IMG/VR virus record: IMGVR_UViG_3300046458_000049 | Location: 1 to 37,947 of that record | Source: a virus | Direction: 5' to 3' (one strand) | Length of the DNA stretch: 37,947 bases | Part shown: positions 28,650 to 32,737 of the stretch, one piece after another | Layout: each line of letters starts with the position of its first letter | Position numbering within the stretch: position 1 is the first letter of the stretch | Program-made: the position numbers and the translations under genes | The notes under the pieces: model-generated | What the model was told of the DNA's origin: nothing | The model's database searches: none | Seen by the model: only the letters and a program-made list of their open reading frames with translations

Positions 28650-29068
28650 GCCACGCCCGCGCCCGGCGCGCAATCGAGGTAAAGCTGGCCGCTTGGGCAG
28701 ATGCCAGGCCGATCATGGTCGCGTATGGGGCTGAGCCATTCACGCCGCCGGAGGCCGAGACCTACCTGCGCGCCTTCCTGATTCCTGCCAGCGCTGTGTC
28801 GCGATACCTGGGATCTGATGCCATCGAGTACCGCGGCGTTTACCAGGTGAGCATCGTTTGCCCTGCGGGCACTGCCATTTCGATCGCTGAAGAGATCATT
28901 GATGATCTGGAACTGTTGTTCCCGGTCGATTCAGGGCTGGACCGGGCTGGCTTCGAGGGCAACGTGGTGCAGCCGGTTGGTCAGGGCCCGACGATTACCG
29001 AGCCTGATCGGTTTACGGTACCGGCTAGCTTCACTTATCTGGGGCAGGCTCCCACGGTGACGACATGA
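28646..29068 (+). CDS. Tail terminator-like protein (DUF4128 type)
   Basis: This 140-residue protein (MSHARARRAIEVKLAAWADAR..., PPEAETYLRAFLIPA, YRGVYQVSIVCPAGT, AEEIIDDLELLFP) matches the DUF4128/tail-terminator pattern (lambda U-like), the ring that ends tail-tube growth and joins the head. It overlaps both neighbours by 4 bases (ATGA), showing strict translational coupling with the gp10-like and first tail-tube genes. Confidence 0.78.
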   Translation: MSHARARRAIEVKLAAWADARPIMVAYGAEPFTPPEAETYLRAFLIPASAVSRYLGSDAIEYRGVYQVSIVCPAGTAISIAEEIIDDLELLFPVDSGLDRAGFEGNVVQPVGQGPTITEPDRFTVPASFTYLGQAPTVTT

Positions 29069-29520
29069 CCACGCGCGTACCGCTTCCCAACGGGACCACC
29101 ACATGGGTCAGCAGCTACGTGGATCCGTCAACGTTGGCGGCCCCGGCGCTGGCTGATCCCAGCTGGATCGAGCTCAAAAAAGTCACGGCCTTGACCCATT
29201 CCGGCGGCGACGAGAAATTCACTGCCTACTCGCCGCTCGCGGAATACGAGGATGTGCGCAAGCCGTCCGGACGCAACCCGATGGATTTTCAGCTGACCTT
29301 TCAGGATGACCCTGATTCGGCCTACGTGGCTGCAATCAGGCAAGGCAGGGATGCCCGGACGGCGTTGGCCTGGAAATTCAAGTTGCCCAGCGGGCTGGCC
29401 AGCATCGTGTTCACTGGTTACGCCAGCGGCTCGCTCATTCCTATCCTGGACCGCAACCAGTTGATGGTCATCGAGATCGTCATCGCAGTAATCGGCATGC
29501 CGAAACGCATTACAAGCTGA
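29065..29520 (+). CDS. Tail tube protein paralogue 1 (short form)
   Basis: This 151-residue tail-tube-type protein (MTTRVPLPNGTTTWVSSYVD..., WIELKKVTALTHSGGDEKFTAYSPLAEYED, RNPMDFQLTFQDDPDSAYVAAI) is clearly related along its length to the next gene, including WVEI/WIEL, RNPM and DQP/DDP-SAYVA positions. It lacks an internal segment of about 65 residues present in paralogue 2. It may form a minor ring such as the tail-initiator or terminator-proximal ring, or a duplicated tube subunit. A hairpin terminator follows 24 bases after the stop. Confidence 0.75.
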   Translation: MTTRVPLPNGTTTWVSSYVDPSTLAAPALADPSWIELKKVTALTHSGGDEKFTAYSPLAEYEDVRKPSGRNPMDFQLTFQDDPDSAYVAAIRQGRDARTALAWKFKLPSGLASIVFTGYASGSLIPILDRNQLMVIEIVIAVIGMPKRITS

Positions 29521-29587: not shown

Positions 29588-30244
29588 ATGGCTACTCGTA
29601 TTGCGCTGCCCAACGGCGCCACCACGCAACTCGCTGTCGCTTTCGCCGTATCGAAAGTGATCAGCGCCATCAGCAACGCCAATCCTGCTGTGGCCACTGC
29701 GGCTGCAAATGGCCTGGCTGATGGCGATATCGTCCTGTTGCAGTCGAACTGGGGCAAATTGGACGGCCGCGCTGTCCGCGTAGCAGATGCTGAAACCGGC
29801 AGTTTCTCGTTGGAAAACATCAGCACTGTAAACGAAACCTTCTACACCCCGGATGGCGGCGCGGGCGGCTTCCAAAGCGTCACCAGTTGGGTCGAGATCA
29901 CCAAGATCACTGGCACATCCTTCACGGGCGGTGAGCAGCAGTTCCTGACCGTCGGCTATCTGGCAGAAGACGACGACCGTCAGTTCCCGACCAACCGCAA
30001 CCCGATGAGCATGGCTTTGACTGTTGAGGATCAGCCAACCGCTGCATATGTTGCGGTCGCCGAGGGTTACACCGACAACAAGACCCAGACCATCCTGCGT
30101 CTGAACCTGCCCAATGGGGACAAGATTCTGTACCCGGGCTTCTGCACCATTACCGACACACCGACCCTCGAACGCAACGCCCTGATGACCCGCACCGTGA
30201 ATTTTGCACTGTCTGGCCGTCCGGTCCGCTACAACGCCGCGTAA
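29588..30244 (+). CDS. Major tail tube protein (paralogue 2)
   Basis: This 218-residue protein would polymerise into the siphophage tail tube. MATRIALPNGATTQL mirrors the start of paralogue 1. An extra domain (about 17-85: SNANPAVATAAANGLADGDIVLLQSN...) is followed by the shared tube core WVEITKITGTSFTGGEQQFLTVGYLAEDD, FPTNRNPMSMALTVEDQPTAAYVAV. ATG 29588 has AAGAGGAAATACCCC upstream, a strong site that fits high expression. It ends before a C-rich spacer and the chaperone gene. Confidence 0.82.
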   Translation: MATRIALPNGATTQLAVAFAVSKVISAISNANPAVATAAANGLADGDIVLLQSNWGKLDGRAVRVADAETGSFSLENISTVNETFYTPDGGAGGFQSVTSWVEITKITGTSFTGGEQQFLTVGYLAEDDDRQFPTNRNPMSMALTVEDQPTAAYVAVAEGYTDNKTQTILRLNLPNGDKILYPGFCTITDTPTLERNALMTRTVNFALSGRPVRYNAA

Positions 30245-30316: not shown

Positions 30317-30700
30317 GTGGCCAAGATTTCTATCCAGCAAAAACCTACCTTCACCACCGACGTGGAGATTCCACGCATCGGTGACAAGACGATCAAGGTC
30401 TCGTTCACTTTTGGCTATCTCGATCGAGACCAATTGGCCGAACTCGCGGACAACGAGATCGCTCACAGCAAGGGAATGGCCGAGCTGATCAAAAAAGATG
30501 GCGTCAGCGTCCGGGAGTACGGCGCCAAGGCGGAAGAGTTCGAGGTCACCCAGATCAAGCTGCTGGTCAAGGGCTGGGGCTTCGAAGACGAGTTCAATGA
30601 CGAGAACATCCTTGCCCTGGTGCGCAGTGCCACGGCGGTTCCGGACGCCATTCTCAAAGCCTACAAAGCGGCTTACAACAAGGCCCGCGAGGGAAACTGA
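30317..30700 (+). CDS. Tail assembly chaperone (G-like)
   Basis: This 127-residue cytoplasmic chaperone binds tape-measure protein during tail assembly. It begins with GTG at 30317, placed by AGGAG at 30304-30308. The acidic/helical product (MAKISIQQKPTFTTDVEIP..., GYLDRDQLAELADNEIAHS) ends at a TGA at 30698-30700, immediately after a GGGAAAC slippery heptamer in the correct phase. A -1 shift fuses it to the downstream frame, as with lambda G and GT. Confidence 0.85.
   Translation: MAKISIQQKPTFTTDVEIPRIGDKTIKVSFTFGYLDRDQLAELADNEIAHSKGMAELIKKDGVSVREYGAKAEEFEVTQIKLLVKGWGFEDEFNDENILALVRSATAVPDAILKAYKAAYNKAREGN
30691..30697 (+). promoter_or_regulatory. Programmed -1 frameshift site GGGAAAC
   Basis: The heptamer reads G GGA AAC in the chaperone frame, the X XXY YYZ arrangement needed for tandem -1 slippage, and is followed at once by the TGA stop. 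Lambda uses GGGAAAG at the same point between G and T. Confidence 0.85.
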
Positions 30701-31014
30701 TCGAGGTTGCCCGCGCGCTCTATACGCCTGATGCGTCTGCCGAACAGCTGTCCATGCTTGGCATGAAGCCAGAGGACCTGCAGCAGGAAATAGTGCTGTG
30801 GGCAACCAACCTTCAGTCGTTCGGCGTGTTCGAGGCGATGGGCACGCAGTGGCGCATGGGCATGGGTGGGGCGACTGGTCTGGATTACCAGGCGCTCCCT
30901 ACGGTCATGGACATGATCGGCCTTGATGCCGAACACCGGCCGGCGGCGTTCCAGGACGTTCGTCTCATGGAGCGCGAGGCGTTGCATGCCATGGCGGATA
31001 GTCGCGAGAGTTGA
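30697..31014 (+). CDS. GT chaperone extension (DUF1799-like), made by -1 frameshift
   Basis: The -1 frame is open across the heptamer and continues from 30697 for 105 residues (LIEVARALYTPDAS..., LQQEIVLWATNLQSFGVFEAMGTQWRMG, GATGLDYQALP), matching the DUF1799 family of T-domain proteins. The expected product is a fusion of 232 residues from 30317 to 31014, a minor chaperone species essential for siphophage tail assembly. The ATG at 30754 could start a separate protein but has no ribosome site. Confidence 0.85.
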   Translation: MIEVARALYTPDASAEQLSMLGMKPEDLQQEIVLWATNLQSFGVFEAMGTQWRMGMGGATGLDYQALPTVMDMIGLDAEHRPAAFQDVRLMEREALHAMADSRES

Positions 31015-31077: not shown

Positions 31078-31872
31078 ATGGAAACGCAGCCGAAGAGTGT
31101 GCTTCAAGAGGTGATTGAAAGTAGAAATGGAGTCGACGCCAGCCTTTATGAGTCCTATGTTCTCGACGAGCTCGCTGTCGAACGGCTCAAGCGAAAAATC
31201 GCTGGAGAGCTGAAGCGTGGGGGCAACTCTAATCTGCATCGTGGTGCTCTGCACCACGAACTTGCTTATCTGTTGGGCCTCCAGGGGCGGGTCGGGGTGA
31301 GCGGAGAGTTAGCCAAGGCCCAAAACTATGGAATACAGGCGTTTGCTATAGGTCTTTCAACTTCTCATATTGCAATTATGAACGGGCATGTTTCTGAAGC
31401 TAGGGAAACGGTAGAGAGGCTTTCAAAAGTGGACGATCTGCCTGAGGCTGCTAGGAAACTTCTCTTTGCGCATTTTGGTCAAGTTGGAATGCTGGAGGCT
31501 ATGGTGGCTAATGCTAAGGGTGGGCGTGAGGTTCGATACGAGCATGTCGCCGCCGGAATTCTAATGCGAATGGGTATTGAAGACATCGAATTAACTAAGC
31601 GCCTTGATACTGCTTGCCGGGTCATCAGGGCGAATATAAAGCATCCAATCCTCGGCCGAAAATTGTTTGCTTCTGATGGTGAAGGCATGCTGTTTCGTTA
31701 CGTTGTAAAAGCGCCAGTCGACGATCTTCTAAGAATAAATGACCAAGTGCTGGACGCGCTTATGGATGAGCACGATGGCCCATTGGATGAGGTGCTCTCG
31801 ATAATGGTTACTCCGTGGAGTTATGATAAAAGTTTTGTCAGGGAGGAAGCATATAATGTCCAGCTCGATTAA
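31078..31872 (+). CDS. AT-richer cargo protein with helical-repeat character, partner of the HEPN gene
   Basis: This 264-residue protein is not a tail component by any visible feature. It is mostly helical, with paired-helix units reminiscent of TPR-like repeats (ALHHELAYLLGLQGRVGV..., AKAQNYGIQAFAIGLSTSH, EAARKLLFAHFGQVGML). No signal, membrane segment or catalytic motif. ATG 31078 follows GGGAG; a GTG at 31072 is possible. Its 3' end overlaps the HEPN gene by 17 bases, so the two are translated together. The block is AT-richer than its tail-gene neighbours, suggesting inserted cargo. Function unknown; an antitoxin or sensor role toward the HEPN protein is inference. Confidence 0.7.
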   Translation: METQPKSVLQEVIESRNGVDASLYESYVLDELAVERLKRKIAGELKRGGNSNLHRGALHHELAYLLGLQGRVGVSGELAKAQNYGIQAFAIGLSTSHIAIMNGHVSEARETVERLSKVDDLPEAARKLLFAHFGQVGMLEAMVANAKGGREVRYEHVAAGILMRMGIEDIELTKRLDTACRVIRANIKHPILGRKLFASDGEGMLFRYVVKAPVDDLLRINDQVLDALMDEHDGPLDEVLSIMVTPWSYDKSFVREEAYNVQLD

Positions 31873-32239
31873 CGACTTCATTGATCAGAGTCTTCGGTTA
31901 CTTGCAGGTAATCATGAAATTGATTATAGATCGGCTATTAGTCGGAGCTACTACGGGGCGTATCATTCTGCCGAAAGCACAGCAGATCGCCTTGAGTTAG
32001 CCCTGAGCAGCAAGAACTATGTTGGCGCCCATGAAAAGCTCATTGATCGATTTGAGGCTCAGGGGAAAGCATTAAAGAAGATCGCTAAGAGGATCCGTAG
32101 CAGGAAACTTATGCGGTCGATGGCTGATTATCAGCTCGATGAGTCAGTGTTAAGGGATGAGGCAGCTCTGGAAATCAAGGAAGCCAAGCAATTGATAATC
32201 GATCTCAATGCGTTGATTCACAAACCGAAAACGCCTTAA
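31856..32239 (+). CDS. HEPN-domain protein
   Basis: This 127-residue helical protein carries a HEPN signature near the N-terminus: DYRSAISRSYYGAYHSAES, giving R30-x6-H37, within the R-x4-6-H range of HEPN RNases found in toxins, Abi and CRISPR effectors. The ATG at 31856 lies inside the preceding gene with GGGAGG at 31840-31845. The C-terminal half is a basic then acidic helix pair ending in LIIDLNALIHKPKTP. Coupling to the helical-repeat protein suggests a two-component toxin/antitoxin or abortive-infection unit. Not every HEPN protein is an active RNase, so activity is inferred. Confidence 0.78.
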   Translation: MSSSINDFIDQSLRLLAGNHEIDYRSAISRSYYGAYHSAESTADRLELALSSKNYVGAHEKLIDRFEAQGKALKKIAKRIRSRKLMRSMADYQLDESVLRDEAALEIKEAKQLIIDLNALIHKPKTP

Positions 32240-32430: not shown

Positions 32431-32667
32431 ATGATCTGGAAAATCATCGGTGGACTTGTGGCGGCAGTTGCCGCCTTTCTCATATTTGGCGCCATGGTTG
32501 GCAATACTCCAGAGGGGAAGGAAAAGCAGCGAGCAAGGGACGCAATCGATCTATGTCGATCCAATGAGCGGCAGTGGTCGGGTGGCGCTCAAGCCAAGTC
32601 GGTAATAACGGGCGCATGTCAGCAGCTTGAAGATGACTTCAGGTCCCGATTCGGCAGAAATCCCTAA
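32431..32667 (+). CDS. Small membrane-anchored cargo protein
   Basis: This 78-residue protein begins MIWKIIGGLVAAVAAFLIFGAMV, one N-terminal membrane span. A charged periplasmic- or cytoplasmic-facing part follows (PEGKEKQRARDAIDLCRSNERQW... CQQLEDDF) with two Cys that could pair. AAGGAG lies before ATG 32431, with a candidate promoter upstream and two terminators downstream, making it a self-contained unit. This design is typical of prophage-expressed genes for superinfection exclusion or envelope change, but no function is shown. Confidence 0.7.
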   Translation: MIWKIIGGLVAAVAAFLIFGAMVGNTPEGKEKQRARDAIDLCRSNERQWSGGAQAKSVITGACQQLEDDFRSRFGRNP

Positions 32668-32683
32668 TCAATACACTGTGAAG

Positions 32684-32737
32684 CTCCGCTTTAGCGGGCT
32701 TTTCATTATTACGAACCCGCCGAGTGCGGGTTTTTTT
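32684..32737 (+). terminator. Two tandem terminators before the tape-measure gene
   Basis: The first has CCGC-TTTA-GCGG (with flanking C/T-G/G pairs) followed by TTTTC, ending at about 32703. The second has AACCCGC (32714-32720), loop CGAGT, GCGGGTT (32726-32732) and a run of seven T to 32737. Late transcription must read through both to reach the tape-measure gene. Confidence 0.8.

Follow-up and report, generated by a model that had tools for sequence, protein, structure and literature searches.

Two overlapping genes in the tail operon of a Pseudomonas-type phage, here called A and H, form a mobile two-gene cassette in which the partners are obligately paired and jointly inherited. Because the same pair is present in a large number of unrelated phages and in a few plasmids, it is probably an undescribed unit for fighting viruses or a toxin–antitoxin unit, in which H would likely be an RNA-cutting HEPN protein and A would probably restrain it. 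Several bacterial immune systems use HEPN RNases as effectors, and a central question is how these enzymes are restrained and triggered in each. A-H presents a minimal case, with one effector, one putative regulator and alleles that occur naturally in one prophage slot. Its copies in Escherichia coli prophages are tractable, cloning and plaque assays being routine there.

An AT-rich insert in a tail operon

The window, the whole stretch of DNA that we analyzed, is a 37.9-kb viral record whose end cuts the tape measure gene. Its tail operon comprises, in order, two tail-tube genes, the Phage_TAC_4 tail chaperone, a DUF1799 gene, A, H, a small ORF, and the tape measure gene (Table 1). A sequence-only reading of this DNA had placed the pair between the tail chaperone and the tape measure and had noted a 17-base overlap between the two genes; both observations are correct. 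The overlap suggests that translation of A and H is coupled, and each gene is preceded by a purine-rich ribosome-binding site. The pair is also richer in AT than the tail genes, as had been claimed, with a GC content of 48% compared with 58% in the flanks; a GC profile shows a local dip to about 45–52% across the insert, while tail genes close by on the upstream side have about 57–63%. The insert is larger than the pair alone, as which it had been described, and includes a third small gene. This ORF has no conserved association with A-H at other loci and is probably separate cargo (a moron) outside the A-H unit.

Table 1 Features of the A-H insert and its surroundings; positions are those of the window.
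Feature	Position	Strand	Remarks
Tail chaperone (Phage_TAC_4)	30317-30700		Upstream of A
DUF1799 gene	about 30700-31014		Between Phage_TAC_4 and A
Whole extra segment	31015-32753	+	From DUF1799 gene to tape measure; cassette, small ORF, and terminator-like sites
Gene A, 264 aa, TPR-domain partner	31078-31872	+	ORF; ATG at 31078, stop at 31872; GGGAG before ATG
Gene H, 127 aa, HEPN (UPF0332/PF05168 type), predicted dimeric RNase	31856-32239	+	ATG at 31856, stop at 32239; GGAGG before ATG, within the 3′ end of A
A/H overlap	31856-31872	+	17 bases
Codon H59, predicted catalytic His	32029-32031	+	Aligned with retron-Kva2 H64
Codon R87, predicted catalytic Arg	32113-32115	+	Aligned with retron-Kva2 R122; in R-x3-D-Y motif
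Small ORF, hydrophobic N-terminal stretch	32431-32667	+	PHROG 23817, E = 1.7e-8, function listed as unknown
Second, weaker terminator-like hairpin	32685-32698
Intrinsic-terminator-like hairpin	32713-32733	+	Insert end, immediately 5′ of tape measure

The interval occupied by A-H was empty in all nine related phages whose tail chaperone is homologous (PseuP_222, Kintu, Medea1, S72, D14H, AUS531phi, Silvergun, phiAH14a, and CUB19); in each, the tape measure directly follows the gene in the DUF1799 position. The more distant phage HK639 likewise has no insert at this site. Absence from related phages together with a different composition is characteristic of phage morons. As to the promoter and terminator associated with morons, no consensus promoter was detected upstream of A, and terminator-like hairpins are present at 32685-32733; terminator-like sites numbered five, compared with 2.1 ± 1.4 in shuffled sequences.

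Two features of the neighboring tail genes were observed in passing. The genes at 29065-29520 (E = 4.7e-20) and 29588-30244 (E = 1.9e-48) both match the Phage_tail_3 tail-tube family, so the tail-tube gene is apparently duplicated. A GGGAAAC heptamer, in frame zero of the tail chaperone, lies at 30691-30697, immediately 5′ of the chaperone stop; a −1 shift at this heptamer would lead into the DUF1799 frame and, on direct reading, resembles the usual lambda-type G/GT programmed frameshift.

A and H form a mobile, obligately paired cassette

Loci were collected by protein searches and then by scans of viral contigs, which added many more. Among 63 distinct H genes from viruses or plasmids, 59 follow directly on an A homologue, and 39 of these 59 loci are outside the training set of the A profile. 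Such repeated occurrence of A and H in this order indicates that the pairing is not due to chance. No A homologue without H was found in the profile survey of viral and plasmid loci, and a single-protein scan with A alone gave no match. The A stop falls within 20 nt of the H start in 50/50 pairs, with overlap in 40/50, an arrangement of two small adjacent or overlapping genes that is typical of type II toxin–antitoxin systems. Distances among A and H proteins are correlated (Mantel r = 0.89, p = 0.0002; 44 pairs), and the GC content of the pair is lower than that of its flanks in all 52 loci listed.

The four H genes unaccompanied by A comprise one at which a contig end cuts the locus (L097), two that are divergent (L013 and L041), and that of Yersinia phage YP3 (L007, 4018-4383), which stops about six residues short of its nearest relative. 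The YP3 copy could be decaying or could be independent of A; a lone, slightly shortened H is awkward for a model in which A is an obligatory antitoxin. More distant HEPN relatives from Planctomycetota and other genomes (L018-L026) also have no A upstream, as if this type of HEPN served another purpose in them.

The genomic settings of the cassette are diverse. It lies downstream of cI in Pseudomonas phage YMC11/02/R656, after the tape measure in the Mu-like phage PG1, between ogr and gpA in a Vibrio P2-like phage, and before the tape measure in Klebsiella phage ST405-OXA48phi1.3; Klebsiella phage Chronis also carries A and H, and some cassettes are located near the lysis region. Among plasmids, the 3.3-kb Klebsiella pKPHS5 encodes A-H with three other genes, which are replication-type and include no reverse transcriptase. 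A Vibrio plasmid and an Acinetobacter plasmid also have the pair, the A protein of the latter being annotated as a TPR protein.

Of the complete E. coli genomes examined (5,426), 33 carry one A-H allele, within prophage baseplate genes, and the region around it is matched in 367 genomes of E. coli. Variable cargo, which the sequence-only reading had proposed to look for at the tail-operon locus in related phages, is present in this E. coli slot. Between flanks that are 95–97% identical, the slot contains either A-H or a divergent allele (31% identity for A, 48% for H); with closely related flanks, it instead contains a DUF4282 gene, a gene followed by a YafO-type toxin, or a membrane-type insert of two genes (L138, 1923-2651). 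The products of this last insert are unnamed and have 184 aa, with two hydrophobic stretches, and 56 aa. The pair that replaces A-H in the E. coli slot (L136, 2076-3066) consists of a hypothetical gene and, after it, a toxin of the YafO family; such a pair also adjoins A-H in R656 (L002, 13517-14508). The two toxins are 29% identical, and their upstream partners have no BLAST match. Slots in tail operons thus serve as sites where cargo is exchanged, and further systems could be found in them.

H has a HEPN fold with an invariant histidine and arginine

The assignment of H as a HEPN protein, first made from the sequence, was borne out by structure prediction. The AlphaFold2 model is a five-helix bundle (pLDDT 95.1) for which the best Foldseek matches are the HEPN structures 2hsb, 2q00, 3o10, and 5yep; the same fold family also includes 7bxo and 7ae8. 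Sixteen of 49 H members match PF05168 in Pfam-A. A profile built from the 49 sequences matches the PDB HEPN proteins 9xbd/9xbc and the UPF0332 protein AF0298, and every member matches PHROG 5176, whose function is listed as unknown.

All 49 H members share ten invariant residues (E21, R25, R30, Y32, Y33, H59, R87, A90, D91, and Y92), among them R25, R30, H59, and R87, as expected of the conserved Arg and His of a HEPN active site. H37 is conserved in 47/49. In a wider set of H sequences, H37 is invariant, and R30 is replaced by Ser (L009) or Lys (L011). We compared these positions with the HEPN protein of retron-Kva2, in which the substitutions H64A, R122A, and Y40-42A each abolish defense against T5 (PMC13405049). 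Kva2 residues R34, R39, Y41/Y42, H64, and R122 align with R25, R30, Y32/Y33, H59, and R87 of H, in a profile match that is weak (E = 0.036 overall; −1.8 bits for the R122 segment alone). Because the functional residues H64 and R122 coincide exactly with invariant positions of H, H59 and R87 are predicted to be the catalytic pair of H, rather than R30 and H37. The R30-SYYGAY-H37 segment, pointed out in the sequence-only reading, is present as described; R30 and H37 as the catalytic pair are disfavored by the leucine (L46) that occupies the position of H37 in retron-Kva2. H is predicted to be a homodimeric RNase.

A joins a TPR region to a C-terminal alpha-beta domain

A had been read as a helical-repeat protein, which describes part of it. 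The AlphaFold2 model (pLDDT 93.2) consists of paired helices at residues 8-186, a confident helical repeat of TPR type, followed by a C-terminal alpha-beta-beta-alpha-beta domain (helix 169-186, strands 194-199 and 203-210, helix 214-231, and strand 240-246), so the protein is not solely helical. The family profile matches TPR structures, and homologues belong to PHROGs 17809, 22649, and 37103, all three with function listed as unknown. A Foldseek search of the PDB gave no match at E < 0.09, with only weak resemblance to TPR proteins and to the MamM C-terminal domain; in BFVD, the model matched two unnamed siphovirus proteins.

The A protein of the window has no match in Pfam, NCBIfam, or PADLOC and H matches HEPN_IX weakly, in keeping with the earlier general idea of an uncatalogued toxin-like or defense unit of prophages. 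Among 44 A members, no nucleotidyltransferase antitoxin family of Pfam was matched, apart from which there was one stray TUTase match (E = 0.0043); PADLOC 2023 returned nothing relevant, one member having a stray JetB match. Mean pairwise identity is 18% for A and 32% for H. The faster divergence of A is as expected for a sensor or a specific inhibitor.

A model for the pair and its alternatives

We favor, with a probability of a little under 0.6, a model in which A-H is a phage-sensing effector cassette, with H a dimeric RNase that is held by A and freed on infection. Through translational coupling, A would be made just before H, bind it, and keep it inactive. In the H homodimer, both subunits would contribute their H59 and R87 to a composite active site, and Y32/Y33 would lie near the RNA. 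The fast-evolving repeat surface of A may sense a cue of infection, most likely some protein of the incoming phage; action of the cue on A, or loss of A, would then free H to cut cellular RNA, for which tRNA is the candidate target by analogy with retron-Kva2. The resulting arrest of growth would leave the competing phage unable to spread, an outcome of the abortive-infection kind. We propose more tentatively, at somewhat short of even odds, that A-H is an undescribed immune system of two proteins, widespread among small plasmids and prophages: a fast-evolving TPR sensor would restrain a retron-IX-like HEPN RNase without reverse transcriptase or msDNA, and its alleles would differ in the phage proteins that they recognize.

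The main rival is a simple addiction module that stabilizes a prophage or plasmid, in which H would be the toxin and A a labile antitoxin with no dedicated phage sensing. Two overlapping genes, carriage on small plasmids, and a slot shared in exchange with a YafO-type toxin pair are all compatible with addiction. A is, however, twice the size of H and matches no DNA-binding or nucleotidyltransferase family, and the R656 pair is located downstream of cI, as lysogenic exclusion genes are. The rapid divergence of A and the range of alleles in a single slot are no less compatible with sensing. We consider addiction unlikely, if still a serious competitor to the phage-sensing model.

Many copies reside within late (tail) operons and are oriented with late transcription, which would suit a role in lytic growth as a counter-defense or host-takeover unit whose H protein would cleave host or defense RNAs late in infection. 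The cI-adjacent and plasmid copies would not be expressed late, however; the insert is closed by terminator-like sites, and A is needed in nearly all copies, making such a role improbable. More doubtful still is lysogenic conversion unrelated to phages, such as tuning of host growth or stress responses by RNA cleavage: growth tuning is possible for HEPN toxins and prophage cargo often alters the host, but cryptic plasmids from several genera carry the pair, and it shares slots with other toxin-like cargo. A role for A and H as virion or tail-assembly parts, to which only their place between tail chaperone and tape measure points, is effectively excluded by the nine empty sites and by copies outside tail operons and on plasmids, bearing out the initial view that tails do not need them.

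Comparison with known systems

A literature search found no published description of a TPR–HEPN pair; the supplementary system lists of two E. coli defense screens (PMC9519451 and PMC13092281) lie outside that search, so earlier discovery is possible. The former reports six systems with HEPN-like motifs, and the latter reports four HEPN systems and mentions TPR in its figure legends. No single PADLOC 2023 system was matched by both proteins, H having weak matches to HEPN_IX and PDC-M05B; in view of the lack of any relevant match for A, we rejected assignment of A-H to a known PADLOC system.

The HEPN protein of the type IX retron (retron-Kva2) is the nearest functionally tested HEPN with the residue layout of H. 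The PADLOC model HEPN_IX matches 27/49 H members (best E = 3.2e-9), and H has Y-Y, H, and R residues as the retron-Kva2 protein does, in the same weak alignment as above. Type IX retrons also have a reverse transcriptase, a winged-helix protein, and msDNA, whereas A-H, as annotated, is without these and has a TPR protein as partner; no reverse transcriptase or winged-helix retron genes were present among the annotated neighbors in pKPHS5 and the phage records.

HEPN–MNT (type VII) toxin–antitoxin systems are likewise two-gene HEPN modules, with a toxin of the same fold family (5yep, 7bxo, and 7ae8) and UPF0332/PF05168 kinship. Their partner is a Pol-beta-like MNT with a GSX10DXD motif, whereas A combines TPR with the alpha-beta-beta-alpha-beta domain; A was rejected as an MNT-type antitoxin for want of a nucleotidyltransferase family match. 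The HEPN–MNT toxin motif is RX4HXY, and H instead has R87-x3-D91-Y92.

Tha, a tail-activated anti-phage HEPN protein of S. aureus prophages (PMC11087260), resembles A-H in being a prophage-borne HEPN effector and offers a model for triggering by tail proteins. It is a single 301-aa protein with an N-terminal region, RX4H catalysis, and an antisense regulator (PMC11087260), whereas A-H consists of two proteins, of which H has 127 aa and no RX4H.

Members of the LA2681 HEPN family are fused to, or in an operon with, TPR proteins (Anantharaman et al. 2013, PMC3710099), similar to the adjacency of H and its TPR partner. In a search of Pfam-A with the 49 H members (E ≤ 0.01), PF05168 was the only family matched and the LA2681 HEPN profile was not among the matches; the search therefore placed no member, by sequence, in another HEPN family.

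In genomic setting, A-H resembles phage morons and prophage defense hotspots, including those of P2 and P4 prophages (PMC9122126 and PMC9519451), in being AT-rich extra cargo in a fixed slot that is exchanged among related prophages. Unlike P2/P4 hotspots, its slots lie in the tail or baseplate operons of several phage types, and A-H is not in PADLOC 2023. A-H would work like other HEPN effector systems, but it differs in the defining features examined from type IX retrons, from HEPN–MNT, and from Tha.
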